DNA from: Candidatus Coproplasma excrementigallinarum
GTDB lineage: Bacteria > Bacillota > Clostridia > Christensenellales > Borkfalkiaceae
Assembly (NCBI GenBank): GCA_018714625.1
Contig: DVNE01000039.1
Span: forward strand, 1-36,614
DNA length: 36,614 nucleotides
Direction of reading: 5' to 3'
Shown: piece by piece, positions 2,906 to 20,795 of the stretch
Layout: each line of letters begins with the position of its first letter
How positions within the stretch are numbered: the stretch's first letter is position 1
Translations under genes and position numbers: made by a program
Notes under the pieces: generated by a model
Seen by the model: the letters and a program-made list of their open reading frames with translations, nothing else
What the model was told of the DNA's origin: nothing
Databases searched by the model: none

Positions 2906-3613
2906 GTGCACGAAGGCCACAGACGCAGAATGTACCAAAAACTTAAGAATGGCGACAACCTCTATGAACACGAAGTTTTAGAGATGCTATTGTTCAACGC
3001 ATACCCGCGCAAAAACACCAATCCCGTCGCCCACGAGCTGCTCGAACGCTTTCCGAGCATATCCGCCGTGCTGTCTGCCGACATAGACGAGCTGATGTCA
3101 GTCCCCGGCGTCGGCGAGCAGGTTGCGCTCTACTTAAAGTGCGTCGGGCTGTGCATAGAAAAGGCCAACACCGCCGAATGTTTTGCTGCCATCTCAAACA
3201 GAGGGGAGATGCTCCGCTTTGCAAAGATGAGAATGAACGGCCACAGCGTGGAAATTCTCGAGCTCTACTTCCTCGATAAAAACGGGAGGGTGACAAGGAT
3301 ATGCCGCTTTTCTTCGAGCGACAGCGACAGGGTGACGGTAGCGCCTGAAGAGCTCATAAAGCTGATATCCGTTGCGCACCCGTACGGAATGATAATAGCG
3401 CACAACCACATCGGTGTTGCCGCCAATCCGTCGGTTGCCGACGACGATTTTACCAAGCAGTGCCAGATTATATGCAGCATGAACAACGTGCGCCTTTACG
3501 ACCATATCATCTGCTCTGGCGAGCAGTGTTACAGTTATTTTGAAACGGGCAGGCTGGACGGCATAGAGCGCAGCTATTCCATATCGAGTATTTTGAAAAA
3601 TGGCAAAGAATAG
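2906..3613 (+). CDS. radC: RadC-type JAB/MPN domain protein
   Basis: This predicted 235-residue protein has the RadC architecture. The N-terminal half resembles the UPF0758/RadC helix-hairpin-helix region (MHEGHRRRMYQ, VLEMLLFNAYPRKNTNPVA, then VPGVGEQVA). The C-terminal half is a JAB domain with the JAMM metal motif AHNHIGVAANPS...D (His166, His168, Asp179). Canonical RadC has HNHPSG; here it is HNHIGV, a moderate departure. RadC was named for DNA repair, but that role is disputed and its real function is unknown. The start is a GTG with AAGG eight bases upstream. The gene overlaps the following histidine kinase by 14 bases, implying co-transcription and possible translational coupling, which is an unusual partner for RadC. 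Confidence 0.9.
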   Translation: MHEGHRRRMYQKLKNGDNLYEHEVLEMLLFNAYPRKNTNPVAHELLERFPSISAVLSADIDELMSVPGVGEQVALYLKCVGLCIEKANTAECFAAISNRGEMLRFAKMRMNGHSVEILELYFLDKNGRVTRICRFSSSDSDRVTVAPEELIKLISVAHPYGMIIAHNHIGVAANPSVADDDFTKQCQIICSMNNVRLYDHIICSGEQCYSYFETGRLDGIERSYSISSILKNGKE

Positions 3614-4829
3614 TAAGTTCAAACTCAATATTCAGAACGTGCGCAAGATACTCGGGCTGGTGGTGCTTGCCGCCCTTGTGGTGATGGAGATAATAATCTG
3701 CGCGCAGTACGCCTCCTTTTACGACCCCGAGCAGGAGTGGTGGATGTACCTCATGCTTGTGCCGTGCTGCATAGTGGTCGATATATCCGTCGCGCTCAAA
3801 TTTTATATCTTCATTCCGCAGAATATAAAATTTGCCATGTACGGCGCCGACTTTCTGTTTCTTCTGATAATTTCGGTAATAACGGGCAACGACTTTATCG
3901 TGGTAATGTACTGCCTCGATACCACCGAACTGTATATAAACAGCGAAAATCTCAAAAACAACCTCATAGTTTTCGGCGTGGGTGCGGGCGTATTCTTTGC
4001 CTCGTTTGCGCTCGGCTGGGTGCGCGTGCACGAGGGCGTTCAGCTCTACACCTCGCTGGTGGAAATTTTGGGCGGTTGTCTGTTCGGGTTTATAATTTTA
4101 AGCATACACTTTGTAGTCATTGCGGCGTTTATGCGCTATTACAGAATGTCGCGTCGGCTTACGAAGGCGCTTGCCGAGGCGGACGAAAGCAAGGCTCAGC
4201 TCGAGGCCGCTTATGAAAAACTTTCAATGACGGCGGTGCTGGAGGAGCGCAACCGAATAGCCAAGGATATTCACGATAATGCAGGACATTCCATAACGGC
4301 GGTCATAATGCAGACGGAGGCGGCTAAACTGCTCGTCGATTCCGACCCCGAAGAGGCAAAAAAGAAGATAATTTCTGCAAATATTCAGGCCAAGAACGCG
4401 CTCGACCAGATGCGCTCCAGCGTACACCTGCTTGCGGGCAGACCTGCCGTCACCTCGCTTAAGGACGGGATAGAGGAAATTGTAGCCCAGACGGTGGACG
4501 CCACCGACCTCAAGATAAGGAGCGACGTGGAGGACATAACGCTCGGCGAAGAGCGCACGCGCTTTCTGTGCAACAGCGTAAAGGAGTGCATATCCAACGG
4601 CATACGCCACGGCGGCGCTACCGCGTTCTATATCGGAGCGAGGAAGGTGGATGACGGTGTAAGCGTGCTCGTGTCTGATAACGGAGTAGGACCGAGCGCT
4701 GATTTCAGGCGCGGCTACGGCCTCAACAGCATGAGCGAAAAGGCCGAAGAATTCGGCGGAGGAATACGCATATCAGGCGACGCCGACGAGGGCTGCGAGG
4801 TTGAGATATTCATTAAATCGTGCGACTGA
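3600..4829 (+). CDS. NarL/DesK-class sensor histidine kinase
   Basis: This predicted 409-residue membrane kinase should autophosphorylate and pass phosphate to a response regulator. About six hydrophobic segments fill residues 16-180 with little extracellular sequence, so the signal is probably sensed in or at the membrane. A short coiled linker (187-212) leads to a HisKA_3 domain with ERNRIAKDIHDNAGH, phosphoacceptor His225. The HATPase domain has the N box NSVKECISNGIRHGG (Asn333), the G1 box SDNGVGP and the G2 region GYGLNSM. All motifs needed for activity are present. It overlaps radC by 14 bases and has only a weak ribosome binding site, so translational coupling is likely. The likely partner regulator lies 273 bases downstream. 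The signal is unknown; cell-envelope stress or lipid state would be typical of the class. Confidence 0.92.
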   Translation: MAKNSKFKLNIQNVRKILGLVVLAALVVMEIIICAQYASFYDPEQEWWMYLMLVPCCIVVDISVALKFYIFIPQNIKFAMYGADFLFLLIISVITGNDFIVVMYCLDTTELYINSENLKNNLIVFGVGAGVFFASFALGWVRVHEGVQLYTSLVEILGGCLFGFIILSIHFVVIAAFMRYYRMSRRLTKALAEADESKAQLEAAYEKLSMTAVLEERNRIAKDIHDNAGHSITAVIMQTEAAKLLVDSDPEEAKKKIISANIQAKNALDQMRSSVHLLAGRPAVTSLKDGIEEIVAQTVDATDLKIRSDVEDITLGEERTRFLCNSVKECISNGIRHGGATAFYIGARKVDDGVSVLVSDNGVGPSADFRRGYGLNSMSEKAEEFGGGIRISGDADEGCEVEIFIKSCD

Positions 4830-4865
4830 AATAATCCCGCGTAATAAGGTAATTATGAAGTAATT

Positions 4866-5092
4866 GCGGCATATTCGTGTACGCGTTTGTCTTAACGGCG
4901 CTATTGCGGCATATGTGCCTTGCAATTTGCTTTTATGGGCGGCGGGCACGGTTTAAATGCGGTATATATGCCGCTCAATGCATTTTTACCTGCCGTGTAT
5001 GATTGCAATATATGCGCCGTGCAATTTTTAAGCCGACTTTTGCGGCGTTTGTTATTAAAATAGCTTTGGATGCGGTATATGTGCCGTTCAAG
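4866..5092. repeat. five degenerate copies of a short GCGGYATATGTGCC repeat
   Basis: The gap between kinase and regulator has no gene. It holds five related units starting near 4866, 4906, 4959, 5004 and 5072. The approximate consensus is GCGGYATATGTGCCGTGCAA, often followed by a T-rich run. The core is near-palindromic (CGGCATATGTGCCG), and the third copy is GCGGTATATATGCCGC. The last copy abuts the AGGAGG of the response regulator. Related units occur in other gaps in this window (11802, 26911, and more loosely 6131, 19551, 24608), so this is either a dispersed repeat family or a set of binding sites. Confidence 0.6.
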
Positions 5093-5102
5093 GAGGATAG
5101 TT

Positions 5103-5741
5103 ATGATTCGCGTTATGCTTGCCGACGACCAGAAAATACTTGCCGAAGGCATAAAAAGCGTGTTGCAGACTTCGCCCGAAATCGAGGTCTGCGGCATAGC
5201 ATACAACGGCGTTCAGGCCGTGGATATGGCCAAAGAACTGCACCCGGACGTCATTTTAATGGACGTGCGCATGCCCGAAATGAACGGCGTTGCCGCCACC
5301 AAGCGCATAAAAGAGGCCTCGCCCGATATAAAGATAATAATTCTTACCACCTTTGACGACAGCGACTATATCCTGAGCGGCATAAACAACGGCGCAAGCG
5401 GCTATCTCTTAAAGGATATAGGCTCTACCGCACTCATAGATGCCATAAAAAACGCATATGCGGGCGATACCATACTGCCCTCCAAAATAGCCAAAAAGAT
5501 TACGGACGCAGCAATGCTCGTCTCGTCGGACAAGCAGATAAAGCTCAAAAAGGCGTACGGGCTTTCGGACAGAGAGGTCGATATAGCAATGATGCTCTCG
5601 GACGGGTTCACCAACAGGCAGATAGCCTCGGCGCTCAAGCTTTCAGACGGCACAGCCCGCAACTATATAAGCTCTATCTACCTCAAGCTGGGGGTAGACA
5701 GCCGCATGAGCGCAATTTCCAAAATCAAAGAACTTAGCTAG
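5103..5741 (+). CDS. NarL/LuxR-family response regulator
   Basis: This predicted 212-residue transcription factor consists of an N-terminal receiver (1-120) and a C-terminal LuxR-type helix-turn-helix (about 148-205). Receiver residues are complete: acidic pair in LADDQ (Asp8, Asp9), phosphoacceptor Asp54 in LMDVRMPEMNG, Thr in ILTTF, and the conserved Lys in YLLKD. The DNA-binding part shows LSDREVDIAMMLSDGFTNRQIA. The listed ORF begins 11 codons earlier inside the repeat array, but AAGGAGG lies just before the ATG at 5103 and the receiver begins there, so that start is chosen. It is almost certainly the partner of the upstream HisKA_3 kinase. Targets are unknown; the repeats upstream are candidate autoregulatory sites. 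Confidence 0.93.
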   Translation: MIRVMLADDQKILAEGIKSVLQTSPEIEVCGIAYNGVQAVDMAKELHPDVILMDVRMPEMNGVAATKRIKEASPDIKIIILTTFDDSDYILSGINNGASGYLLKDIGSTALIDAIKNAYAGDTILPSKIAKKITDAAMLVSSDKQIKLKKAYGLSDREVDIAMMLSDGFTNRQIASALKLSDGTARNYISSIYLKLGVDSRMSAISKIKELS

Positions 5742-5906
5742 GGAAATGCTCTGTTTTCGTGTGCGGTGTAAGTTTTTTAAAGTTGAAGGCCTTATATCCG
5801 CCTATTGAAACTGTAGTTTATGGGCTAAGTTTATTTATAAACGTCGTCAGTTTTTCAGCCGTTGAATGGCTGATATCTGCGCTTTAAAATTTTGTATCTT
5901 TGCTGC

Positions 5907-5955
5907 CCGCCCGCAGCAGCATTTTGCGCAGCGGCTGCGGGCGGACTTTTAATTT
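5907..5955 (+). terminator. intrinsic terminator after the response regulator
   Basis: CCGCCCGCAGC and GCTGCGGGCGG form a perfect 11-bp stem with a 16-base loop, followed by ACTTTTAATTTTT. It lies about 165 bases past the response regulator stop. Confidence 0.7.
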
Positions 5956-5958
5956 TTG

Positions 5959-5990
5959 CACCCGAAAAAAGTCGTTCGGGTGTATTTTTT
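5959..5990 (+). terminator. second tandem terminator
   Basis: CACCCGAA and TTCGGGTG form an 8-bp stem followed by TATTTTTT. It lies directly behind the previous terminator and insulates the two-component genes from the GH3 operon. Confidence 0.75.
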
Positions 5991-6063
5991 ATCATAAATT
6001 GGATTTGATAAACAAAATCGTTTGTTATTTATGATAGTATTTAAACAAATTATGCAAAAAATG

Positions 6064-6092
6064 TTGCAAGATTTAATTGATTGTGATAAAAT
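6064..6092 (+). promoter_or_regulatory. promoter of the GH3-GPH operon
   Basis: TTGCAA, a 17-base spacer and TAAAAT match the sigma-A consensus. Transcription would start near 6099, giving a leader of about 105 bases. An inverted element (AACAAA / TTTGTT) lies about 40 bases upstream, near 6012-6028, and could be an operator. Confidence 0.6.
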
Positions 6093-6138
6093 ACCACGTG
6101 GAAATAGCAAAGCACGGCAAATTTATTTGCCGCACATA

Positions 6139-6176
6139 TGCCCGCAACTGTTTCCCGGCGGGCGGGCAGCTTTTTT
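6139..6176 (+). terminator. possible leader attenuator before GH3
   Basis: Inside the predicted leader, TGCCCGC and GCGGGCA form a 7-bp stem with a 16-base loop, followed two bases later by six T residues. It ends 28 bases before the GH3 start. A second small hairpin (CGGCAAA TTTA TTTGCCG, 6115-6132) precedes it. A terminator between promoter and first gene suggests transcription attenuation, but no known antiterminator site was recognised. Confidence 0.45.
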
Positions 6177-6204
6177 CATAAAAAAATATCTATGGGGGAG
6201 GACA

Positions 6205-8610
6205 ATGACAAGAGAAGAGATTTTATCAAAAATGACTGTCAGGCAGAAAGCCGACCTTCTCACCGGCAAGGACTTCTGGAGCACGCAGGGCTATGAGGAG
6301 CTGGGCATACCGTCAATCTTTTTTTCGGACGGGCCTCACGGCTTAAGAAAGCAGGCGGCTGCGTCCGACCATCTCGGTCTTAACGCAAGTATTCCCGCAA
6401 CCTGTTTCCCTACTGCCGTATCCGTGGCGTCAGGCTGGAACGAAGGCATAGCCGAAAAGCTGGGCGAGGCGCTCGGCGAAGAGGCTGCGTCTCAGCAGGT
6501 TAACATGGTGCTTGGACCCGGACTGTGCATAAAGCGCAATCCCCGCTGCGGCCGTAACTTTGAATATTTTTCAGAAGACCCGTATCTCGCCGGCAAAATG
6601 GCAGCGTCATATGTGCGCGGCATTCAGAAGAACGGCACGGCGTCCTGCATAAAGCACTTTGCCGCCAACAGCCAGGAAGAGCGCAGAATGGTCACCGATT
6701 CCGTCATGGACGAGAGGACCTTGCGCGAAATTTACCTCACGGGCTTTGAAATTGCCGTAAAAGAGGGCAAGCCGCACGCAGTGATGTCTGCCTACAACAT
6801 GGTAAACGGCGCTTTCGCGGACGAAAACACCCACCTTCTGCGCGAGATACTGCGCGGCGATTGGGGCTTTAACGGCGTAATAGTTTCAGACTGGGCGGGC
6901 ACTAACAACAAAGTTGCCTCCACCATAGCAGGCAGCGATATAGAGATGCCCGGCTGCCGCTACGGCGCCGACGACATCGTAAAGGCGGTGGAAGAAGGCA
7001 GACTGGACATAAAGTATGTTGACGAATGCGTAAACCGCGTTCTCGACCTCATCGAAGCCACCACCAAGGGCGAAAAGGGAAAGCCGTTTGATAAAGAGGC
7101 GCACCACGCGCTTGCAAAGAAGTGCGCGGACGAATGCGTCGTGCTTCTCAAAAATAACGGCGTTCTCCCCATACAGAAGGATACGGAAGTTGCCATTGTG
7201 GGCGACTTTGCAAAATATCCCAGGTATCAGGGCGCAGGCTCTTCCATAGTCAACCCCACCAAACTTGAAAAGGCGTTCGACGATATGCGCGATTATTCCT
7301 TCAAGGTCAAGGGATATGCGCAGGGCTTTGAAAGGTACGGCAAAAAGAAGACGGAGCACCTCACCGCCGCCGTCGAGCTTGCAAAGACGGCCGATATAAC
7401 GCTGCTGTTCTTAGGACTTGACGAGTACAGCGAGGCCGAGGGCCTTGACAGACCCGATCTGAAGATGCCCGAAAATCAGATAGAAACTTACAGGGCGCTC
7501 AAGGCGGCAGGCTGCAAGGTGGTAATAATTCTCTCCTGCGGCAGCTCGGTATATCTCGACTGGGCGCGCGACGCCGACGCGATAGTTTATGCCGGTCTTG
7601 GCGGACAGGCAGGCGCAGCCGCCGTGCTCGACGTAATAAGCGGCACGGTCAACCCTTCGGGCAAACTTGCAGAAACCTGGTCTACTCCCGAAGCTCCCTG
7701 CGCAAGCCAGAGCTACTTCCCCGGCAAGCAGATGACCTGCGAATACAGAGAGGGGCTCTACGTAGGCTACCGCTACTTTGAAAAGGCTGAAAAGCCCGTT
7801 GAATTCCCCTTCGGATTTGGTCTTTCATATACAAAATTCGAGTATTCGGATATATCCTGCGACGAGGACGGCGTAAGCTTTACAATCGCCAACGTCGGCG
7901 ACTATGACGGAGCGGAGGTCGCTCAGCTCTATGTCGGCAAGGAAGACAGCAGCATATTCCGCCCCGTAAAGGAGCTCAAGGGCTTCAAAAAGGTATTCCT
8001 CAAAAAGGGCGAAAGCTGCAAAGTCACAATACCCTTCGACGATAAAACTTTCCGCTACTTCGATGTGGAGAGCAACAAGTGGGAGGTTGAAGGCGGCGAA
8101 TATGTGCTCTACGTGTGCGCAAGCTCGGCCGATATACGCCTCACCGCAAAGGTGACAAAGGCCGGCACAAAGCAGACTTGCCCCTATAATATGGCTGAAA
8201 TACCCGCATATTACAGCGGCGAAGTCGAGCACGTGGACGACGCTCAGTTCAAAGCTCTGCTCGGCAGGGAAATCCCCAGGAGCGGATACAACTTCTATAA
8301 AAAGAACCGAATGGTAATAACCGAAAACAGCACCGTTGCAGACCTCAGGTATTCAAAGCGCTGGGTGGGCAGGCTCTTTTCGGGAGTAATAAGGTTCGCC
8401 ATAAAATTCATGAACGGAATAGGTAAACGTTCAACTGCCAACACGCTGGTAATGGGCGTCCTGCATCAGCCGGTAAGGGGGCTTGCAAAGTTCGGCGGTA
8501 TGTCGCGCAGGCAGATGGAAGCGCTGCTGCTTATGTTCAACGGGCATTTGTTCAAGGGCATAGGTCAGTTTTTAAGTAAAGAAAAAATCAATAAGGAGGG
8601 AAAAAGCTGA
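6205..8610 (+). CDS. cytosolic GH3 beta-glucosidase-type enzyme
   Basis: This predicted 801-residue glycoside hydrolase of family 3 should remove non-reducing beta-linked sugars with retention. The N-terminal barrel (about 1-330) carries GPHGLRKQ, FEYFSEDPYLAG, CIKHFAAN and the nucleophile Asp229 in VIVSDWAG. The alpha/beta sandwich (about 350-560) has the probable acid/base Glu412 in EAEGLDR. A fibronectin III-like domain (about 600-710) follows. The final 90 or so residues are an unassigned extension with a basic, partly hydrophobic helix region. No signal peptide is present, so it acts in the cytosol. The listed ORF extends 61 codons upstream through the leader; GGGGGAGG before the ATG at 6205 decides the start. 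Its stop overlaps the transporter start (TGATG), so the two form an operon. The sugar could be glucose, xylose or another pyranose. Confidence 0.93.
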   Translation: MTREEILSKMTVRQKADLLTGKDFWSTQGYEELGIPSIFFSDGPHGLRKQAAASDHLGLNASIPATCFPTAVSVASGWNEGIAEKLGEALGEEAASQQVNMVLGPGLCIKRNPRCGRNFEYFSEDPYLAGKMAASYVRGIQKNGTASCIKHFAANSQEERRMVTDSVMDERTLREIYLTGFEIAVKEGKPHAVMSAYNMVNGAFADENTHLLREILRGDWGFNGVIVSDWAGTNNKVASTIAGSDIEMPGCRYGADDIVKAVEEGRLDIKYVDECVNRVLDLIEATTKGEKGKPFDKEAHHALAKKCADECVVLLKNNGVLPIQKDTEVAIVGDFAKYPRYQGAGSSIVNPTKLEKAFDDMRDYSFKVKGYAQGFERYGKKKTEHLTAAVELAKTADITLLFLGLDEYSEAEGLDRPDLKMPENQIETYRALKAAGCKVVIILSCGSSVYLDWARDADAIVYAGLGGQAGAAAVLDVISGTVNPSGKLAETWSTPEAPCASQSYFPGKQMTCEYREGLYVGYRYFEKAEKPVEFPFGFGLSYTKFEYSDISCDEDGVSFTIANVGDYDGAEVAQLYVGKEDSSIFRPVKELKGFKKVFLKKGESCKVTIPFDDKTFRYFDVESNKWEVEGGEYVLYVCASSADIRLTAKVTKAGTKQTCPYNMAEIPAYYSGEVEHVDDAQFKALLGREIPRSGYNFYKKNRMVITENSTVADLRYSKRWVGRLFSGVIRFAIKFMNGIGKRSTANTLVMGVLHQPVRGLAKFGGMSRRQMEALLLMFNGHLFKGIGQFLSKEKINKEGKS

Positions 8611-10418
8611 TGGCAGCTAAAAAAAGCGTGTTCGACAATCCCGTTTTATCAACAAAAGTTAAATCGGCGAACGTCAAACTTGTGCCCGAAGCTCTGTTAG
8701 GCTATCTCGTGGGTCCGTTCTGCGGCCTGCTTGCAAACAGTTTGTTCGGCACATATCTCGTATCCTATTTCCGCGATACCTTGTTCAAAACGGAAATTGC
8801 GGCAGGAAATACAGGGGTAGAGGCATTCCTCACAATATTCCCCATGATTTCGGCAATACTCATAGTTCTCGGTAACCTGCTCGCAGGGCAGATAATCGAA
8901 AGAACAAAGACGAAGGCGGGCAAGGCAAGGCCCTACATTCTGCTCTCCGCGGTAGTTCTTGCGGTAATAAGCGTTGTAATGTTCATTCAGCCGCTGCCTG
9001 ATAACACCATATTCAAGATGGTATGGCTGGTTATAGCTTATAACCTCTTCTATGCGGTTGCATTCCCGCTTTACAACACGGCAAACAGCGCGCTCATACC
9101 CGTTTCGACCCGTAACGGCAAGCAGAGAGGACTTCTCGCCTCGCTTGCAAACATGGCGGTACTCGGCGGCGCGGGCGCAGGTTCTATAATATTCCCCCAG
9201 ATAATAGGTGCGCTTGCCGCATCTGACAGCCTTGGCATGGACGGCCTCCCGGCCTCCGACGGCACCATTCCCCGCGTGCCCACCGCCAACGGCTACCTCA
9301 TTATATTCATAGTAATAGGCATTGTTACCTTCATCGGCTGCCTCGCGCAGTACTACTTCACCCGCGAGCGCGTAACCGAAGAGAGTATGGTAAAGACCTA
9401 CGAGTCTGATAAGGCAAAGGCCGTGGCAGAAGAGGAGGCTCTCGAAGCCAAGAAGGCCAAAGGTCCCTCGTTAAAGGAGCAGGCAAGGGCTATCTTCAAA
9501 GATAAGTTCTTTATGGTAACAATCATATTCTATCTGCTCTACCAGTTCTCGGGCTCTATAAAGAATGCGGCAATGAAGTCGTTCACCGACGCCATATATG
9601 CCAGCGCAGATATAGGCGCGAGCGGCGCGATGAGTATACTCGGCATAGTGGGCGCAGTGCCCATGGCTGTTGCCATCGTGTTTGTAGCTCCGCTGTGCAA
9701 TAAGTTCGGCAAACGCCCGATAGTATTTATCGGTATGGTAATAGGCGTTATCGGCGGCGTAATAGCTGGCATCTGGTACCAGAACTTTATCGTCGCTGCC
9801 ATAGGCATAGCCCTTAAGTGCCTCGGCTCCGCTCCCGCAGGATATATGATACTCGCCATGATTGCAGACTGCCTCGACCATATGGAGGCTAAAAACGGCT
9901 TCCGTTGCGACGGCTTCGGTATGTCATTGTACAGTGCAATACTGATTGCCGCAGTTCCTCTGGCAACCGGTATAGTAAGTGGCCTTGCAAGCATAGGTTC
10001 TTACGGCACGGTTGTGGCGTATATCTGGATAGAGACGGGCGCTTATGCGCTCTGCGCGATAACGGTACTCTTCTTCGGAGTTGAAAAGTTCCTTCCCGAA
10101 GACAACAAAAAGATAATTGCCCGCCAGAAGGCAGAGGCAGAGGCCGCAGGCATAGAGTGGATAGAGCCTGCCGAACGCCTCCGCATAGAGGAGGAAGAGG
10201 CCGACCGCATAGCTGAAGAGGCACGCGTTGCCGAACTCAAGGCCAAGTGCGAAAAGAAGGGCCTTTCCTTCGAGGAAGAAGAGGGCAAGTATCAGGCAAA
10301 GCTCGCCGAAAAGAAGGCCAAGGCAGAGGCAAAAGCTGCCGCAAAGGCTGCAAAGTCTGGCGCTCCCGCAGCCACGGAAGAAAAGCCTGACGACGGCTCT
10401 GACGCTGAACAGAAGTAA
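8610..10418 (+). CDS. GPH-family sugar:cation symporter with long charged C-terminal tail
   Basis: This predicted 602-residue, roughly 12-helix major facilitator belongs by resemblance to the glycoside-pentoside-hexuronide:cation symporters (MelB/XynP-like). Supporting features are the early ALLGYLVGPFCG and SYFRDTLF region, the TKAGKARPYI loop between helices 2 and 3, and NTANSALIP. A hydrophilic central loop (about 265-300) separates the two halves. After the last helix (about residue 495) comes a tail of about 105 residues rich in Ala, Lys and Glu, predicted helical or coiled; most GPH symporters end near 450-500 residues. AAGGAGGG precedes the ATG, which overlaps the GH3 stop by one base. 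It should import the glycoside or sugar processed by the GH3 enzyme. The tail might contact regulatory or enzymatic partners, but this is speculation. Confidence 0.88.
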   Translation: MAAKKSVFDNPVLSTKVKSANVKLVPEALLGYLVGPFCGLLANSLFGTYLVSYFRDTLFKTEIAAGNTGVEAFLTIFPMISAILIVLGNLLAGQIIERTKTKAGKARPYILLSAVVLAVISVVMFIQPLPDNTIFKMVWLVIAYNLFYAVAFPLYNTANSALIPVSTRNGKQRGLLASLANMAVLGGAGAGSIIFPQIIGALAASDSLGMDGLPASDGTIPRVPTANGYLIIFIVIGIVTFIGCLAQYYFTRERVTEESMVKTYESDKAKAVAEEEALEAKKAKGPSLKEQARAIFKDKFFMVTIIFYLLYQFSGSIKNAAMKSFTDAIYASADIGASGAMSILGIVGAVPMAVAIVFVAPLCNKFGKRPIVFIGMVIGVIGGVIAGIWYQNFIVAAIGIALKCLGSAPAGYMILAMIADCLDHMEAKNGFRCDGFGMSLYSAILIAAVPLATGIVSGLASIGSYGTVVAYIWIETGAYALCAITVLFFGVEKFLPEDNKKIIARQKAEAEAAGIEWIEPAERLRIEEEEADRIAEEARVAELKAKCEKKGLSFEEEEGKYQAKLAEKKAKAEAKAAAKAAKSGAPAATEEKPDDGSDAEQK

Positions 10419-10842
10419 TTTATTGCAGTGTTAATCTAAAAATTAAAAAAGTCAATTTGCCGATTTAGTGCCTTGCCGCCTCGTTTAGGTACGGAGTGCG
10501 TCTCCGCCGATTTCCCCCTCCCTCATATCAACTGTGCGGAGTGCGCGCGGCGGCAGGGCATTGGTCCTTTGCGTAAAAAAGACTTTTTAAAAATCTGATT
10601 TGTATGTATGCTGCCGCGCGCTCTTATAAACCGCGGCAGTATATTTATATGGCAGGCTTATTTCTGCTGAAAGCTGTGTCTGTTTTGGGTGCGCAATGGC
10701 GCTGCGGCGGGCTGTTTTTTGGCATTGCATTTGTTGCGGCGTGTTTTTGCGGGCAATGTGTTAAACGATACAGTCATTAAATAAGTCTGAGGCCGCAACG
10801 GCATATAAAGGCACAATAAAATAAATTTAAAGGAGAACGGTT
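10419..10842. other. intergenic region with possible structured RNA
   Basis: No gene is seen. Positions 10469-10480 (TGCCTTGCCGCC) pair with 10549-10560 (GGCGGCAGGGCA) through 12 positions with one G-T pair, enclosing a 68-base segment. That segment contains an inner hairpin CGGAG-TGCGT-CTCCG. Further down, CTGCCGCG and CGCGGCAG form an 8-bp stem near 10610-10638, followed by an AT-rich stretch. Either could terminate the GH3-GPH transcript, but neither has a clean T-run. A structured leader or small RNA is possible but unproven. Confidence 0.35.
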
Positions 10843-12103: not shown

Positions 12104-13003
12104 CTACGCCTTGGCAAGTTCTCCGTCAAAGTCGTCAGAGCTCTCTATCAGCACGCATTCGTGCATAGTGGGGTTCTGTTCGCGGTCGTTCAGGTCGGCA
12201 AAGTTCTCCTTCATTATAAAGTTTTCAGGTAAATTGGAGGGGGTATATCCCGTAAACGTTTTAAAAATTCTGTTAAAATTGCGTATGGTAGTAAACCCGC
12301 ATTTGAGCGAAATTTCCGTAAGTGAAAGTTTGCTCCCGCTGTTTATAAGGTCGACGGCCTTGCTCGTCTTAACATAGTTTAAGTATTGCGAAAAGGTCAT
12401 TCCCATCAGCTTGTGGAACATTCTTGAAAAGTAGGCGGCATTCACATTCATAAATTTTGCCGCGGTGTTCAAATCGTAAAACTCGTATTTTTCGTCTATT
12501 TCCTGCAACAGGTCTTTAAGCGTGGCCGAGCTGCCCTTTTTTGTACCTTGGGGGCAGGTTTTTTCGTGCATAAATACATTCAGCATCGCGTTTGCCACTT
12601 CAAGCGCCGTTTCGTGCCCCGAAAAAGGAGTGCGCGCAGCAAGCTTGTCCCTGAGCGAAAGATACAGCTCATTCACTGCGTATTTGCCTGAAAGCACGGG
12701 CGAAACCAATTCCGTTCCGTTTGCATACGGCTTTATCAGGTCGTAGTCGAATATAATCATAGAAACGACGGTCTGCGGGTCGCGTGCGTGCATATAGTGC
12801 ACCTGCTCGCTGTCTATAAATACCTCGTCACCGACGCGCACTCTGTAGTTCTCGCCATTGCAAAAGATGTCAAGCTCGCCGTGTTCAACATAGAGCAGCT
12901 CGCAGTCGTAGTGCCAGTGGGGCATATTGTGCGAATTTTTATATCGCCCGACCCATACCTTTGCACCCTTCTGATACTGCCATTGTTCCCTTTTGGCCTG
13001 CAT
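12104..13003 (-). CDS. AraC-family transcriptional regulator
   Basis: This predicted 299-residue regulator combines an N-terminal cupin-type sensor (about 20-120: MPHWHYDCELLYVEHGEL, VGDEVFIDSEQVHY) with a C-terminal AraC double helix-turn-helix (about 185-290: LNTAAKFMNVNAAYFSRMF, LSLTEISLKCGFTTIRNFNRIFK, GYTPSNL). The sensor histidines suit sugar or small-ligand sensing as in other AraC sugar regulators. The listed ORF begins 22 codons earlier, but a perfect TTGACA-17-TATAAT promoter at 13041-13069 would start the mRNA downstream of that ATG, and AGGTAAAG precedes the ATG at 13003, so that start is used. It is divergent from the tethered GH3 gene, whose promoter carries direct repeats suited to AraC binding. 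It is therefore the likely local activator. Confidence 0.92.
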   Translation of the reverse strand: MQAKREQWQYQKGAKVWVGRYKNSHNMPHWHYDCELLYVEHGELDIFCNGENYRVRVGDEVFIDSEQVHYMHARDPQTVVSMIIFDYDLIKPYANGTELVSPVLSGKYAVNELYLSLRDKLAARTPFSGHETALEVANAMLNVFMHEKTCPQGTKKGSSATLKDLLQEIDEKYEFYDLNTAAKFMNVNAAYFSRMFHKLMGMTFSQYLNYVKTSKAVDLINSGSKLSLTEISLKCGFTTIRNFNRIFKTFTGYTPSNLPENFIMKENFADLNDREQNPTMHECVLIESSDDFDGELAKA

Positions 13004-13040
13004 AGCTTTACCTGCTGAAAAGTTTTGTATTAATATCCAT

Positions 13041-13069
13041 ATTATATAATAATTTTGAATATTTGTCAA
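13041..13069 (-). promoter_or_regulatory. promoter of the AraC-family regulator
   Basis: On the minus strand TTGACA, a 17-base spacer and TATAAT form a full consensus match. Transcription should begin near 13034, about 30 bases before the chosen start codon. Confidence 0.85.
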
Positions 13070-13138: not shown

Positions 13139-13281
13139 ATATCACGCAAAAGAAAGTTAATTGCATTTTTCTATTGATTTTTTTGTGTGTAATGAAAAAA
13201 TTGTGAAAAATGTGAAAATTTTATAAGGCGTCAGGCGCACGACGAGCGTGCGCAATATCAACTTATATGAGGAGGAATAAA

Positions 13282-16200
13282 TTGAAAAAATCAACAACCT
13301 TGCACGCCCTGCGCGGCGCTACCGCGGTGTGCGCACTGCTCTCTGTTGTGAGCATAGGCGCATCGGCGATAGCCGTAGCGTGGGAGCCGAACATCAACGA
13401 GTTCTTAGGAACTTCAAGCACGGAACAGGTGACGAGTGATGAGTCGAACCCTGAAGAACTGTACACCTATGTCAACGAGGACATTACCAACACCGATGAC
13501 CTTGTAGCATGGCACAAGGACCTTGCAGAGAGGGAGCAGGAGGAAGGTTCCGTTCTGCTCAAGAACAACAACGAAACTCTGCCCCTTGCCAACGGCGCAA
13601 AAGTAACGCTTCTCGGCAACCGTGCGGTAAACTCCGTTCACGGCGGCCAGATAGGCAGCAGCCCCAACTCTGCCCAGAATATCAGCCTTGCTGACGCGCT
13701 CGAACAGAAGGGATTTGATGTAAACCCCACCACGATTGAAGCTTATACCGCCGTCGGCAAGACGCCCGGCAGGCTCTCCAACAGCTTCGGCATGGTTCAG
13801 AAAGTTCCAAACGGCGTAGTGGTTAACGAACCCTCCGTTTCAGAACTTGAAGCAGCCAGCTCCAACTGGGGCGCAAGCATCACGGAATACTCCGATGCTG
13901 CCATCGTTGTAATCGGCAGACCGAGCTCTGAAGCCGCCGACTTCTATCCCGGCGAGGCCGGCCTCGGCAATCCCGACGAATTTGAAGAGGGCGAAAATAT
14001 CCTCGGCCTCAGCATAAACGAAAAGGCAATCATAGACTACGCCTGCGAGCACTTTGAAAAGGTAATCGTGCTTGTCAACAGCGACAGCGCCATGGAGCTC
14101 GACTATGTGCAGAACAAGGCGGAAGTAGACTCCATCCTCTGGGTGGGCGCAGTCGGCAACTACGGTTTCCTCGGCGTGGCCGATATACTCCGCGGCGAAG
14201 TTTCGCCCTCAGGTCATCTGCCCGATACATACGCCGTTGACTCCACCAGCTCGCCCGCAATGGTAAACTTCGGTCTGTTCTCGTTTGCCAACTATGCCGA
14301 TTACGGCGGCAATACCGATAACTCCAAGGGCTTTGCATTCCTCGACGAGCAGGAGGGCATCTACACCGGTTATCGCTACTATGAAACGAGGTACGAAGAC
14401 GCCGTTCTCGGCCGCTATAACGCAACTTCTGTAACGGGCTCAAGCACGGGCGAAGCGTGGAACTATGACGACGAAGTGCTCTACTCCTTCGGCTACGGCC
14501 TCTCTTACACCACATTCGAGCAGGAGCTTATATCCGTTTCCGAGAAGGAGGGCATGATAGAGGTAGTGGTTGAAGTCACCAACACGGGCGACTTCCCTGC
14601 AAAAGATGTCGTTCAGGTATATGTTCAGACGCCTTATACCGACTACGACAGGCAGAACCACGTTGAAAAATCAGCCGTTCAGCTTGCAGACTTTGCCAAG
14701 ACACAGACGCTTGCTCCCAGCGGAGAAGAGGGCGACTCTGAAGTAGTTACTCTTTCCTTCGACAAGAAGTATATAACCAGCTACGACTATGTGAATGCCA
14801 AGACCTATATCCTTGACGCAGGAGATTACTATCTCTCCATAGGCAACGGCGCGCACGACGCTCTGAACAATATACTTGCTGCAAAGGGCGCGGATGTGGA
14901 CGGCGACGCCCAGAAGGTTTACACCTGGACGCAGGACACACTAAACACTACAACCTATGCAACATCCGATTCCTCTGGCGAGGATGTGGCTGTCACCAAC
15001 CAGCTCGACGATATGAACCTCAACTACTGGACGGACAACGATATGTGGGAAGGTCAGCTCTCGAGGAGCGATTGGTCGGGCACGTGGCCTGAAGGCTATG
15101 AAGTTTCCGGCGATATCCACACCACCGACCTCGTTGCTACGGCAGCCATGATAAAGGAACTCACCAACGACGTATACAGCACCGAGGGCAAGGACACAAC
15201 GCCCACCGAGTGGGGACAGGATACCGGGCTCACCATAGGCGCGCTCAAGGGTGCGGACTATGACGACGAGCGCTGGGACGAGCTGCTCTCCACCATTACT
15301 CTCGAAGAGGCAATAGAGTTCTATGTATGGGCGCAGAACCAGACGGCCGGCATGGCCAGCATCGGCCTCGATATGCAGCACGTTCAGGACGGTCCTCTCG
15401 GCTTCAGCTATCAGACTCTCGGACACTTCAACACCAACGAAGAGGGCGACCCCGCAGCCATGGAGGAGGACGACGCCAACGCAGGATATTCGGTATACGA
15501 CTCTGTAACCGAGCCCGTTCTCGGCGCATCTTTCAACAAGGAGCTGCTTGAAGAGCAGGGCAGACTGTTCGGTACGGACTCGCTCTGGACGAACACCGCA
15601 ATACTCTGGGCACCCGGTCTCAACACGCACCGCACGCCCTACAACGGCAGAAATCACGAATACTATTCTGAAGACCCCATGCTCACCAACTATCTCGGTG
15701 CGGCAATAACGAGCGGCGCGCTTGAATACGGACTTGTAGTTGCTCCCAAGCACTTTGCTTTCAACGACCAGGAATCCAACCGTACGGGCGTTTCGGTATT
15801 CATGAATGAACAGCGTGCGCGCGAAATAGAGCTCCGCGCATTCCAGGGCGCATTCCAGGATGCGGGCTGCATGGGTACAATGACGGCCTTCAACCGTGCA
15901 GGTATGCGTTATGCGAGCGCACACGAAGGACTTATCACCAACATACTCAAAAAGGAGTGGGGCTTCACGGGATATATCGTAACCGATATGATTAACGGCC
16001 CCATGTACATGAGGGCGGATACCTCGCTCATGGCGGGCACTACCTGCCTCGATACCTCGGGCAACGAAACTTCCATTGCACTGCTTGAAGCCATAAAGGA
16101 CGACCCCGCAGCTCAGAATGCGCTTAAGGACGCAATGCATTCCAACCTCTGGGTACTTGCAAATTCCAACGCGCTCAACGGTGTGGACAGCCTTACAAAG

Positions 16201-16329
16201 ACGATAAATGTTACTCCCTGGTGGAAGGCTACCCTCACTGCGGTTGAAGTTGTGTTCATCGTTCTCACCGTAGCCGGTGCGGCAGGCTATGTTGCCGTTA
16301 CCCTCAAAAAGAAGAAGGAGGAGGTGTGA
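13282..16329 (+). CDS. membrane-tethered, domain-permuted GH3 glycosidase
   Basis: This predicted 1015-residue family 3 glycosidase has its domains in reversed order. A hydrophobic N-terminal segment (about 13-33) is followed by the GH3 C-type sandwich (GSVLLKNN, LPLANGAKVTLLGN, possible acid/base Glu217 in SSEAADF, SGHLPDTY), a fibronectin III-like domain (YSFGYGLSYTTFE, VEVTNTGDFPAKDVVQVY), then the barrel (LDMQHVQDGPLGFS, NHEYYSEDPML, VAPKHFAFNDQE, nucleophile Asp902 in YIVTDM). A second hydrophobic helix (about 980-1007) and KKKKEEV end the protein. Permuted GH3 enzymes are known from rumen clostridia. Anchors at both ends suggest an exported enzyme held on the outer face. The listed ATG start is really inside the AGGAGG ribosome binding site; the TTG at 13282 fits better. 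Substrate is probably a beta-glycoside. Confidence 0.9.
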   Translation: MKKSTTLHALRGATAVCALLSVVSIGASAIAVAWEPNINEFLGTSSTEQVTSDESNPEELYTYVNEDITNTDDLVAWHKDLAEREQEEGSVLLKNNNETLPLANGAKVTLLGNRAVNSVHGGQIGSSPNSAQNISLADALEQKGFDVNPTTIEAYTAVGKTPGRLSNSFGMVQKVPNGVVVNEPSVSELEAASSNWGASITEYSDAAIVVIGRPSSEAADFYPGEAGLGNPDEFEEGENILGLSINEKAIIDYACEHFEKVIVLVNSDSAMELDYVQNKAEVDSILWVGAVGNYGFLGVADILRGEVSPSGHLPDTYAVDSTSSPAMVNFGLFSFANYADYGGNTDNSKGFAFLDEQEGIYTGYRYYETRYEDAVLGRYNATSVTGSSTGEAWNYDDEVLYSFGYGLSYTTFEQELISVSEKEGMIEVVVEVTNTGDFPAKDVVQVYVQTPYTDYDRQNHVEKSAVQLADFAKTQTLAPSGEEGDSEVVTLSFDKKYITSYDYVNAKTYILDAGDYYLSIGNGAHDALNNILAAKGADVDGDAQKVYTWTQDTLNTTTYATSDSSGEDVAVTNQLDDMNLNYWTDNDMWEGQLSRSDWSGTWPEGYEVSGDIHTTDLVATAAMIKELTNDVYSTEGKDTTPTEWGQDTGLTIGALKGADYDDERWDELLSTITLEEAIEFYVWAQNQTAGMASIGLDMQHVQDGPLGFSYQTLGHFNTNEEGDPAAMEEDDANAGYSVYDSVTEPVLGASFNKELLEEQGRLFGTDSLWTNTAILWAPGLNTHRTPYNGRNHEYYSEDPMLTNYLGAAITSGALEYGLVVAPKHFAFNDQESNRTGVSVFMNEQRAREIELRAFQGAFQDAGCMGTMTAFNRAGMRYASAHEGLITNILKKEWGFTGYIVTDMINGPMYMRADTSLMAGTTCLDTSGNETSIALLEAIKDDPAAQNALKDAMHSNLWVLANSNALNGVDSLTKTINVTPWWKATLTAVEVVFIVLTVAGAAGYVAVTLKKKKEEV

Positions 16330-16330
16330 T

Positions 16331-16783
16331 ATGAACGTTAAAACCTTTTTCGAAAAGCAGTCTGTGGGCTTTTATGTGGGCGCAGCGGCCGTCCTCTTCA
16401 TGCTCATAGGTACAATAATTCTTTCAACAAACTGCAATATGGAGTACTATCAGGACTATACGGCCGTCGTACCTCTTCTCGGCAGTCTGGCAGTAATTGC
16501 GGGCGTTGCCCTGCTCGTAGCTCAGCAGTTCGTCAAAATCCCCCATCTGGACGCAATCTGGATAGTTTCAGTCATACTCATGGCCGCTGCGCTCATGATT
16601 ATGATAAGCATGAGGGTGGAATCCATGGCCTACATTTTAGGTTCCGACCTCGAAAACGACAACCCCATCGCAAAGCCTGCACTCAATAACTTCTTCGCTG
16701 GCGCGGCAATAGCGCTTGTAGGCATAATCGCGGCTGTGGTTGCGGCATTCTTCAGCACTGTAAAAGAGAAGGCAAACGCATAA
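16331..16783 (+). CDS. small four-helix membrane protein paired with the tethered GH3
   Basis: This predicted 150-residue protein of unrecognised family has four hydrophobic segments (about 13-31, 43-63, 72-92 and 119-141) and a short Lys-rich C-terminus. No catalytic motif is visible. It starts one base after the GH3 stop, with GGAGG overlapping the end of the GH3 gene, so the two are co-translated. The listed ORF begins 18 codons earlier inside GH3; the ATG at 16331 has the better spacing. By position it may be a membrane partner that helps insert, hold or stabilise the tethered enzyme, or a transport helper. This is inference from operon structure only. Confidence 0.8.
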   Translation: MNVKTFFEKQSVGFYVGAAAVLFMLIGTIILSTNCNMEYYQDYTAVVPLLGSLAVIAGVALLVAQQFVKIPHLDAIWIVSVILMAAALMIMISMRVESMAYILGSDLENDNPIAKPALNNFFAGAAIALVGIIAAVVAAFFSTVKEKANA

Positions 16784-17156: not shown

Positions 17157-17172
17157 AAGGGGTTTGAATTAT

Positions 17173-19542
17173 ATGATAAAAATGAGCTTCAACGATGGCT
17201 GGAAGTACGGACACATAGGCGAGGACTGGCGCAAGGAAGTCACCCTCCCGCACGACGCAATGATTTTGGAAAACCGTACGGCGGACAGTGCCAGCGGCAA
17301 AAACGCGGGCTGGTACGAGGGGTATGACTATGTGTACGAAAAGTCTTTCACCGCACCCGAAGAGTGGAAGGGCAAGAAGGTGGTGCTGGAGTTCGAGGGC
17401 GTTTACCGCAATGCAAAAGTATATATCAACGGCAAGGAGGCGGGCGGCTGGGCCTACGGCTACACCGGCTTCTATGTTCAGGCGGACGGGTTTCTGAACT
17501 TCGGCGGGGAGAATACCATAAAGGTAGAGGCGTTCAACGCCGACCAGCCCAACAGTCGTTGGTATTCGGGCGCGGGCATTTACAGACCGGTATGGCTGTA
17601 CGTGCTGCCCGAAGAGCATATAGAGCTCTGCGGCATAAAAATAAAGACGCTTGGCTATAATCCCCCCCGTTTTACGGTAAAGGTGAACACCAACTCGGCG
17701 GGCTCGCTCAAAGTGGAAATTCTCGACGGCGAAACCGTCGTTGCGGAAAAGGAGCAAAAGACGGAGGGCGAGGCTGTTTTTGAGTTCGAGCTTGCAGACG
17801 CAAAACTCTGGAGCACGGACAGCCCCAACCTCTATACCTGCCGCGTTACCTTCGGCGAGGACTTGCGCGAAGAGCGCTTCGGCATACGCCTTCTGGAATG
17901 TGACGCCAAGGGCGGCCTGCGCATAAACGGCAGGCGCGTAATTCTGCGCGGCGCGTGCATACATCACGAAAACGGTATTTTAGGCGCGGTAAACCACCCC
18001 TATGCCGATGCGCGCAAGATAGAGCTTCTGCAAAAATACGGCTACAACGCCATACGCTCGGCGCACAACCCTACCTCCAAGGCCACGCTTGAGGCGTGCG
18101 ACCGCCTGGGCGTGCTGGTTATGGACGAGTATGTGGATATGTGGTATATCCACAAGAACAAGTACGACTTTGCAAGTCAGTTTGCGGGCGAGTGGAAAAG
18201 GGATCTGAAGGCGCTCGTGAATAAGGACTATAACCACCCCTGCGTGGTTTTATATTCGATAGGCAACGAGGTTGCCGAAACGGGTCAGAAGAAGGGCATT
18301 GCCTTTGCCGCAGAGATGACAAAGTACCTCCACACCCTGGACGACCGCCCCGTTACCTGCGGCATAAATATATTCTTCAATCTGTTATATTCGCTCGGCT
18401 TCGGCATTTACAGCGATAAAAAGGCGGATGCGGAGCTCAAGTCTGCAGGCAAGAAAAAGAAGTCTGTCGGCAGCGAGTTCTTCAACGACCTTGCAGGCCT
18501 TCTCGGCGCTACGACAATGAAGATAGGCGCAACCCTGCCGGGCTGCAACGCAAAGACAAAGGACGCCTTTGCCGCCATGGACGTGGCGGGCTATAACTAC
18601 GGCATACTGCGCTATAAGGGCGATATGAAGAAGTACCCCGAAAGGGTAATACTCGGCAGCGAAACCTTCTGTGCCGACGCCCGCAAGTTCTGGCTGACCG
18701 CACAGAAGCACCCCGCACTTATTGGCGACTTTGTGTGGTCTGGCATAGACTATCTCGGCGAGGTAGGCGTCGGCTCGTGGCTGCACGCCGACTATGCCCC
18801 CGAGTTCACAGGAGGCGTAGGCTGGGTTACGGCAGGCAGCGGCAGGCTTGACCTCAACGGCCGTCCGCTTGCAGAGGCGCTCTATACCCGCGTGGCGTTC
18901 GACCTCGATACTATAAAAGTGGGCGTTGTCCGCCCCGATATGGCGTTTGAAAAACATTCGCCCTCGGCCTGGAAGCTTTCGCAGGCGTGGGACAGCTGGA
19001 CTTGGGATAACTGCGAGGGCAAAAAGACGATGGTGGAGGTATACACTACCTGCCCCAGAGCGGCCATATATATAAATGGTAAAAAGGTTGCCGAAAAGAA
19101 GGTGGGCGCAAACGCCCGCGCATATTTCAAGGCGGTATATATGCCCGGCGAGCTTGTTGCCGTCGGACTGGATAAGTCGGGCAAGGAAGTCTGCCGCTCC
19201 GCACTTAAAAGCGGCGGCCCTGAAACGCAGCTCCGCGCACTGCCCGAACATCCCTATGTTGGCAAGGACGAACTTTGCTATATCCGCTTGCAGTACACCG
19301 ATAAAAACGGCGTATGGAAGCCGCTTGCCCGCGGCGAAATTTCCGTCGAGGTCGAGGGCGGCGAACTTATGGCGCTCGGCAGCGCCTGCCCCTACAACGC
19401 ACACGGCTACAACGGCACGGTTACGGATACCTACTTCGGCGAGGCCATGGCCATAGTCAGACCTTCAGGCGAAGGCCCCGTCGTGCTCCGCGCCGAAAGC
19501 AAGTACGGCAGAGCGGAAGCCGTCGTAAATTGCAGGAACTAA
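17173..19542 (+). CDS. glycoside hydrolase family 2 (beta-galactosidase/glucuronidase-like)
   Basis: This predicted 789-residue cytosolic enzyme has the GH2 layout: jelly-roll sugar-binding domain (about 1-160: NAGWYEGYDYVYEK, YINGKEAGG, ADQPNSRWYSGAGIYRPVW), immunoglobulin-like domain (about 165-270), and a TIM barrel (about 275-580) with IRSAHNP, acid/base Glu366 in SIGNEVAE and nucleophile Glu497 in LGSETF. A C-terminal beta domain follows, with a DUF4982-like region around WDNCEGK and YINGKKVAEKK. It retains both catalytic glutamates. There is no signal peptide. A TTG at 17164 is the listed start; the ATG at 17173 with AAGGGG ten bases before is preferred. Nearby galT, galK and galM suggest beta-galactosides as substrate, but beta-glucuronides or other beta-glycosides cannot be excluded. 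Confidence 0.92.
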   Translation: MIKMSFNDGWKYGHIGEDWRKEVTLPHDAMILENRTADSASGKNAGWYEGYDYVYEKSFTAPEEWKGKKVVLEFEGVYRNAKVYINGKEAGGWAYGYTGFYVQADGFLNFGGENTIKVEAFNADQPNSRWYSGAGIYRPVWLYVLPEEHIELCGIKIKTLGYNPPRFTVKVNTNSAGSLKVEILDGETVVAEKEQKTEGEAVFEFELADAKLWSTDSPNLYTCRVTFGEDLREERFGIRLLECDAKGGLRINGRRVILRGACIHHENGILGAVNHPYADARKIELLQKYGYNAIRSAHNPTSKATLEACDRLGVLVMDEYVDMWYIHKNKYDFASQFAGEWKRDLKALVNKDYNHPCVVLYSIGNEVAETGQKKGIAFAAEMTKYLHTLDDRPVTCGINIFFNLLYSLGFGIYSDKKADAELKSAGKKKKSVGSEFFNDLAGLLGATTMKIGATLPGCNAKTKDAFAAMDVAGYNYGILRYKGDMKKYPERVILGSETFCADARKFWLTAQKHPALIGDFVWSGIDYLGEVGVGSWLHADYAPEFTGGVGWVTAGSGRLDLNGRPLAEALYTRVAFDLDTIKVGVVRPDMAFEKHSPSAWKLSQAWDSWTWDNCEGKKTMVEVYTTCPRAAIYINGKKVAEKKVGANARAYFKAVYMPGELVAVGLDKSGKEVCRSALKSGGPETQLRALPEHPYVGKDELCYIRLQYTDKNGVWKPLARGEISVEVEGGELMALGSACPYNAHGYNGTVTDTYFGEAMAIVRPSGEGPVVLRAESKYGRAEAVVNCRN

Positions 19543-19550
19543 AAAAACGC

Positions 19551-19654
19551 GCGGCAATATGCCGCAAATAATCAAAAAAAATGGCGGTTTGCCGCACGGT
19601 AAATTAAAACGTGCGGCAATATGCCTCAAATATATGCTGCGGCGAAATGCCGCA
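19551..19654. repeat. cluster of small GCGGCA/TGCCGC palindromes
   Basis: Four near-palindromes fill the gap before the GtrA-like gene: GCGGCAATATGCCGC (19551-19565), GGCGGTTTGCCGC (19583-19595), GTGCGGCAATATGCC (19611-19625) and TGCGGCGAAATGCCGCA (19638-19654). The first and third are near-identical over 13 bases. The last ends at the ribosome binding site AAGGAAG. They resemble the dispersed GCGGYATATGTGCC units. Confidence 0.5.
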
Positions 19655-19664
19655 AGGAAGTAAA

Positions 19665-20795
19665 ATGGAAGAACAAACATCTGCCGAAGAAAGTCTGCTT
19701 TCGCCCAAGCCGCTCTCGCAAAACGCCTTTAAGGCATTCTGGCAAAAAATATGGCGTTGGTGGCAGGGCGTGTGGTACGGCTTTTCTGAAAGGCGCCCCA
19801 AGATTGCCGCATGGCTCTATAAAATTGCACTCTTTTTTGTATTCAGCGTAAGCGTTACGCTGTTGCAATATATAGGCTTTGTCACCCTGCCCTATCTCTT
19901 CGGGCAGGAGCTTGCAGGTACGGAATTTATGTGGCCGCATTTAAAGCTCACCACGATAGACGGCAACGATATATATTGGAATATCCTCGGCTACAATGTC
20001 AGCTACAACGCGGCAGGCGAGGTGGTGATAGGCGGCGGACTGGGCTATTTTATCGCCTACGAACTCACCGTGTTTATTGCGCAGTGCATAAACTTTCCTC
20101 TGCAAAGGAATATCACCTTCCGCTCCCACGGAAATGTGTGGTGGCAGGCAATGTGGTACTTTTTCGGCTGGATACTCGTTTCGCTCTTCAGCAACGCCAT
20201 AAACGGACTGTGGATACCCTTTGCCGAGCTGTATGTTTCGGGTGCGGTATATAATATTCTGGTAACGGTAGTCACGGGCGGCGTGTCGATGGTGATATAT
20301 TTCTTTATCTTCCTCGTCATATTCCCCGACGCCGACAAGACCGAACGCTCTAAAAAGGCTGCGCTCAGTGCTGCCGAACGCAGAGCGGCACAGGCTCAGG
20401 GTAGCGCGGCGGCATCCAAGGCGCAGGCTGCGCTTGAAAGGGCGCGCGCAGAGTATAATATTGCGCTAGAAAACAAAAAGTTCTTCCACGCTGAAAAGGA
20501 CATATCCTCCGCCGTATCGCTCGCCGAGGCAAAGATAAACGGCTACAACGGAATGCTCAAAAAGCTTACAAAAACAAGGTCTGCGCTTGCTGACGCGGAG
20601 AATGCAGGCAATGCCGAAAAGACTGCGGCTCTTAATAAAGAGGTTGCTGAGCTTGAGGCCGCCGTTGGCAAGGCGAGGGCGCAGGCGCTCGAGGCCGCCC
20701 GCCGCAGAGAGGAGATACTTCCTCCCAATCAGGCAATACTTGAAGAGATAAAGGCGGCCCGTGCCGCCCGTAAGGCTGCAAAAAATAAGGCGTAA
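19665..20795 (+). CDS. GtrA-like membrane protein with long coiled C-terminal tail
   Basis: This predicted 376-residue protein has about four membrane segments (53-78, 123-142, 160-182, 196-220). It contains INFPLQRNITFRS, resembling the NF-x-x-x-R-x-x-TF signature of GtrA-like proteins, which are linked to moving undecaprenyl-linked sugars or anchoring glycan enzymes. A polar loop (about 80-120) interrupts the first helical pair. The last 155 residues are an Ala/Glu/Lys-rich, probably coiled-coil cytosolic tail; ordinary GtrA proteins are only 120-160 residues in total. The start is the ATG at 19665 with AAGGAAG upstream; the listed ORF begins earlier inside palindromic repeats. It lies between GH2 and the galactose genes without obvious partner. 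The GtrA assignment is a resemblance, not certain. Confidence 0.65.
   Translation: MEEQTSAEESLLSPKPLSQNAFKAFWQKIWRWWQGVWYGFSERRPKIAAWLYKIALFFVFSVSVTLLQYIGFVTLPYLFGQELAGTEFMWPHLKLTTIDGNDIYWNILGYNVSYNAAGEVVIGGGLGYFIAYELTVFIAQCINFPLQRNITFRSHGNVWWQAMWYFFGWILVSLFSNAINGLWIPFAELYVSGAVYNILVTVVTGGVSMVIYFFIFLVIFPDADKTERSKKAALSAAERRAAQAQGSAAASKAQAALERARAEYNIALENKKFFHAEKDISSAVSLAEAKINGYNGMLKKLTKTRSALADAENAGNAEKTAALNKEVAELEAAVGKARAQALEAARRREEILPPNQAILEEIKAARAARKAAKNKA

Follow-up and report, generated by a model that had tools for sequence, protein, structure and literature searches.

A permuted GH3 glycosidase bearing hydrophobic helices at both termini and a co-inherited four-helix membrane protein: a putative two-subunit surface enzyme

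Results

A permuted GH3 gene and a small membrane protein gene

The window analyzed here, by which we mean the whole stretch of 36,614 nucleotides from Candidatus Coproplasma excrementigallinarum (family Borkfalkiaceae; contig DVNE01000039.1, positions 1 to 36,614), contains a gene for a GH3 enzyme and, directly downstream, a gene for a small membrane protein. The features of the locus are as follows:

12104..13069, minus strand: AraC-family regulator, divergent, a possible regulator of the locus
13269..13275, plus strand: Shine-Dalgarno AGGAGGA of the GH3 gene
13282..16329, plus strand: predicted permuted GH3 exo-glycosidase, 1015 aa (N-terminal helix, alpha-beta sandwich, Fn3, TIM barrel, C-terminal helix)
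13324..13380, plus strand: N-terminal hydrophobic helix (by hydropathy), preferred as an uncleaved anchor over a signal peptide
13930..13932, plus strand: predicted acid/base catalyst E217, aligned to E458 of Thermotoga Bgl3B, in an R-x3-E motif
15985..15987, plus strand: predicted catalytic nucleophile D902, aligned to D242 of Thermotoga Bgl3B and D709 of GlyA1
16249..16305, plus strand: C-terminal transmembrane helix, with PWW before it and KKKKEEV after it
16331..16783, plus strand: four-helix membrane partner, 150 aa, N-in/C-in by charge, outside named families
17164..19542, plus strand: GH2, beta-galactosidase-like, no transmembrane segment; a neighbour outside the conserved pair

The GH3 gene starts with TTG at 13282 and ends with TGA at 16327-16329. 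An in-frame ATG at 13267 overlaps its Shine-Dalgarno sequence, and the Pfam and transmembrane (TM) residue numbers given below are those of the 1020-aa ORF counted from that position. Membership of GH3 is supported by three Pfam domains above their gathering scores: PF01915 (94 bits; cut-off 31), PF00933 (78 bits; 27) and PF14310 (30.5 bits; 25). The domain order is permuted, because Pfam places Glyco_hydro_3_C (residues 96-414) first, followed by Fn3-like (447-527) and Glyco_hydro_3 (751-910); this bears out the reversed sandwich-before-barrel order proposed in the initial annotation. With a sandwich, a middle FnIII domain and a barrel at the end, the protein has the architecture that defines the GlyA1-type permuted subfamily.

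GlyA1 is a permuted GH3 beta-glycosidase from the rumen (PDB 5K6L-5K6O; PMC5104943), with the same sandwich-FnIII-barrel order and a catalytic pair, E143/D709 (PMC5104943), that aligns to E217/D902 of the window protein. It differs in having an extra C-terminal domain of 120 residues, which is not obligatory in the subfamily (PMC5104943); in the window GH3 the barrel is instead followed by a short linker, the PWW motif and the TM helix. The main text of the GlyA1 report (PMC5104943) makes no mention of transmembrane segments (0 occurrences), and a small membrane partner is absent from the passages of it consulted. The beta-glucosidase of Paenibacillus barengoltzii (5WUG/5WVP) also has the permuted order by profile alignment; the crystallised protein has 955 residues, compared with 1015 aa for the window GH3. 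The conventional GH3 Bgl3B of Thermotoga neapolitana (2X40) aligns to the window protein in its catalytic residues and in both main domains, but its barrel precedes its sandwich.

Catalytic residues are conserved across permuted GH3s

Catalytic sites were placed by profile alignment to Bgl3B (2X40) and GlyA1 (5K6L). We take D242 and E458 of Bgl3B to be its nucleophile and acid/base, respectively, and these residue numbers fit the 2X40 alignment. Another glutamate of the window GH3, E358, was considered as the acid/base and discarded on the alignment to 2X40, which gives E217. The window protein has the full set of catalytic and -1 subsite residues (D902, E217, R790, K823, H824, R834 and D703). 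In our alignment of the 206 permuted GH3s collected, E217, R790 and K823 are invariant (206 of 206), whereas D902 is present in 203 (the remaining three being gaps) and H824 in all except gapped rows. Because of this conservation, the permuted GH3s are predicted to be working-type enzymes and not dead receptors. The -1 subsite aspartate D703 is replaced in 63 of the 130 partner-bearing GH3s, by N (51) or E (12), and by N in 12 of the 76 partnerless ones; such replacements may mark a change of specificity.

Both ends of the enzyme carry a hydrophobic helix

Hydropathy, by which helices were called throughout (and additionally by AlphaFold2 for the partner and for one fusion), gives the GH3 one TM segment per end, at residues 20-38 and 995-1013. 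Tethering at both ends had been regarded as unexpected in the initial annotation. The helix at each terminus is indeed there, but the surprise is not, since 59 of the 76 partnerless permuted GH3s share the arrangement, as do 115 of the 130 partner-bearing ones. Double anchoring thus appears to be the norm of the permuted branch and nothing special to the window gene.

The initial annotation held that a cleavable signal peptide at the N-terminus would refute its reading. By motif count, as opposed to a trained predictor, only 21 of the 130 partner-bearing GH3s have an A-x-A motif after the first helix; the looser small-x-small pattern is found in 112 of 130 and is uninformative. The residues just past the first helix are conserved as I-[ND]-x-x-[LF]-G, and in two natural fusions (see below) the same helix is internal to the protein. 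Judged by these motifs and fusions, an uncleaved anchor is favoured over a signal peptide.

The partner is a four-helix protein outside named families

The partner ORF begins with ATG at 16331, one base beyond the GH3 stop, and stops at 16781-16783; its own Shine-Dalgarno lies within the 3' end of the GH3 gene. Hydropathy predicts four TM segments, so that the 150-residue four-helix protein described initially stands as annotated. Both termini are positively charged and the outer loops are acidic, and from this charge distribution both termini are predicted to lie inside the cell. The window protein has the features by which we define the family: it is matched by the partner profile, contains four TM segments and is encoded next to a permuted GH3.

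Searches of the Pfam, NCBIfam and PDB families returned no match. DUF2157 (PF09925) was considered and rejected: the score of 19.3 bits, reached by the window partner only (1 of 42 members), is under the gathering score of 32.4. The AlphaFold2 model is a confident four-helix bundle (pLDDT 92.5, pTM 0.87), whose top PDB structural match by Foldseek is the Fc epsilon RI beta chain MS4A2 (8YVU_B; TM 0.64, E 0.058, 17% identity); a search of a viral structure library gave nothing significant. MS4A2 is an accessory subunit of four helices, packed against the single-pass helices of its partner chains. At that E value, and with no MS4A chain recovered by profile, we detect no homology to MS4A or other tetraspan receptors, and the resemblance is one of analogy only.

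We found no conserved polar residue inside the helix cores of the partner, and therefore its role is more easily understood as structural than as transport or catalysis. This bears on the idea of the partner as a channel or hand-off protein that takes the sugar freed by the enzyme into the cell or passes it to a transporter, for which the window offers some context in a GPH symporter, Leloir genes and GH2 and GH3 enzymes of the cytosol. Conserved polar or charged residues are nevertheless missing from its helices, it matches no transporter family and no transporter is fused to it or paired with it, which makes such a role highly improbable. The related proposal of the initial annotation, that sugar is released close to a transporter, finds no support, given the same lack of polar residues and the absence of a transporter from the conserved pair. 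The window does carry Opp genes and the GPH symporter, but as neighbours of the pair.

The enzyme-partner pair recurs across genomes

The window genome (1.43 Mb in 60 contigs, 76% complete) has about 12 GH3s of the size class of the window gene, of which nine have a partner. A profile of eight partners recovers eight loci, all adjoining permuted GH3s, and a broader profile adds the ninth, upstream of the C44 GH3. Across the family, 44 of 151 genomes match the partner profile at E 0.001, the weakest matches being doubtful, and one 2.0-Mb genome has the highest copy number (26). Across the order, 26 of the 347 genomes have matches, and 13 of the 137 genera are represented.

To describe what adjoins the partner we took 94 regions around family members outside the window genome, selected by the partner itself. 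Of the 101 partner ORFs in them, 62 lie downstream and 33 upstream of a permuted GH3, while another two form a single protein with one (97 of 101), usually with a spacing within 40 bases. Among the remaining four, one proved adjacent on inspection (L213, the 98th), two are likely deletion remnants (L250 and L253) and one is a true exception (L180). The pairing spans Clostridia, Bacilli, Bifidobacterium and Thermophilibacter, and it occurs in named strains of Bifidobacterium asteroides (L049), Butyrivibrio (L034), Thermophilibacter (L044) and Murimonas intestini (L103; unverified record). Recurring in the window genome and in several classes, it exceeds chance.

When loci were chosen by GH3 similarity alone, the partner was scored beside 18 of 80 named GH3s and not beside the other 62, one of which (L036) was mis-scored owing to a size filter. 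Since about three quarters of this broader sample lack it, the partner is not generally needed by doubly anchored GH3s. Absence of the small gene beside most homologues, which the initial annotation had set against its own reading, is accordingly true of the broad sample and untrue of the clade of the window gene: 56 of its 57 GH3s were scored with a partner and the last, L036, has it in the next ORF, giving 57 of 57.

In the apparent deletion remnants (L253, 4340-5110; L250, 5561-6379) the C-terminus of a partner is joined either to a response regulator or to the N-terminal part of a GH3, and several partner genes of the most amplified genomes contain in-frame stops, suggesting birth-and-death turnover. 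Such decay would fit a reading in which the adjacency arose by accident as the gene family was amplified, and the partner is a functionless hitch-hiker. That explanation is the least probable of those considered: the pair survives a change of gene order and spans classes, the two proteins occur fused, and the partner has a confident, conserved fold.

Natural fusions occur in both orders

Three fused genes were found, all in draft or metagenome assemblies. In L035, the four-helix domain lies past the C-terminal GH3 helix in a single frame of 1213 residues. In L215 and L252, it lies ahead of the N-terminal GH3 helix; these two are 61% identical to each other, and for that reason probably represent one fusion event. 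At least two independent fusions are thereby indicated, in both orders known from separate genes. The model of the L035 fusion (pLDDT 87.6; pTM 0.84, a value dominated by the GH3 domain) was built from an alignment of ten adjacent in-frame pairs, read through the intervening stop, plus GH3-only rows, and its best PDB matches are the permuted GH3s 5K6M and 5WVP.

Two further arrangements were seen. In L036, the ORF next to the GH3 (3325-7074; 1249 residues) begins with a partner domain, after which come a fifth helix and extracellular-type repeats of about 1000 residues. In L043 of B. asteroides (9320-10615), an esterase domain (PF00756) stands behind a membrane region with a weak relationship to the partner, directly 3' of a GH3 and a small membrane gene.

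The fusions also bear on the main rival explanation, in which the partner would help the GH3 to insert into the membrane or to fold, acting in biogenesis only and not as a lasting subunit. The pairing and co-inheritance data would also fit such a factor, and so would partner helices without conserved functional residues. Covalent fusions in two orders, open from end to end, suggest instead a lasting 1:1 association, and we consider a pure biogenesis factor unlikely.

Enzyme and partner are co-inherited

On a tree of the 206 GH3s, scored for no partner, an upstream partner or a downstream partner, nine changes of state are needed, compared with a mean of 92 (minimum 83) after shuffling; the tree is midpoint-rooted, and its root cannot tell partner gain from loss. 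Within single genomes, tree distances among GH3s correlate with tree distances among their partners: Mantel r is 0.81 (p 0.001) for the 19 downstream pairs of genome G051, and the correlation is 0.74 for eight downstream pairs of G101 and 0.56 for eight pairs of the window genome. Because they hold inside single genomes, these correlations argue for cognate pairing beyond species history. Residue covariation between the two proteins was above a within-state permuted control; a focus of this covariation on the GH3 helices was not found, so it yields no contact map.

Neighbouring genes and regulators

Close to the pair, the window has galactose genes (GalT, GalK and an aldose epimerase). Upstream of the pair (6022-10418) lie a non-permuted GH3 without TM segment, related to an NCBIfam exo-alpha-1,6-L-arabinopyranosidase below the cut-off, and directly after it the GPH-type symporter. 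The gene context suggests use of galactosides or arabinopyranosides. Between GH2 and galT lies a 394-aa protein (19611-20795) that is matched by neither Pfam nor NCBIfam and has roughly three hydrophobic segments.

Of ten GH3 loci examined in the window genome, eight (L012, L013, L014, L015, L017, L019, L020 and L022) carry a LytTR response regulator together with a GHKL histidine kinase that has several membrane helices. This raises the idea that the partner couples the enzyme to signalling, for instance through the adjacent two-component system. The window pair, however, has the AraC regulator in its place, only 40 of the 94 family loci have a response regulator inside the region retrieved, and we saw no fusion of a partner to a kinase; we regard coupling to signalling as very unlikely. 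Giant permuted GH3s (1413-1459 aa) that include Ig-type domains are encoded at three loci (L015, 10693-14934; L017, 10597-14976; L020, 4944-9248); the one at L015 has He_PIG and adjoins lipoprotein-like proteins with Big_3 and Listeria-Bacteroides repeats.

Discussion

Domain order, catalytic residues, terminal hydrophobic helices, gene pairing, fusions and co-inheritance are established here at the level of sequence. They are probably best explained by a membrane-bound, two-subunit exo-glycosidase of the cell surface, in which the four-helix protein is the cognate accessory subunit. The GH3 ectodomain would lie outside the cell, with one helix holding each end, and the partner would be a dedicated, co-inherited subunit packing on those helices within the membrane. 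By such contact it may stabilise the enzyme, orient it, or both, for the trimming of short glycans at the cell surface, presumably for sugar foraging. The membrane-bound surface glycosidase complex of the initial annotation thus finds support in adjacency, fusions in both orders, tree agreement and within-genome covariation; the delivery of sugar to a transporter finds none.

In Gram-positive gut bacteria, the breakdown of glycans at the cell surface is usually seen as the work of single secreted or anchored enzymes together with ABC transporters. A search of open-access full-text literature, a body of text mostly without subscription papers and preprints, returned no description of a GH3 paired with a four-helix partner. 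The real novelty of the locus would be the partner protein, double anchoring being less unusual than first thought. We think it reasonably likely that the partners form a new family of bacterial four-helix accessory subunits, and that the enzymes are two-component, doubly anchored surface glycosidases, paralogously expanded, each with its cognate tetraspan-type subunit. Named strains carry the pair, so the two-subunit idea may be testable. A conserved membrane subunit for each amplified, catalytically intact enzyme copy suggests a modular two-part machine at the cell surface.
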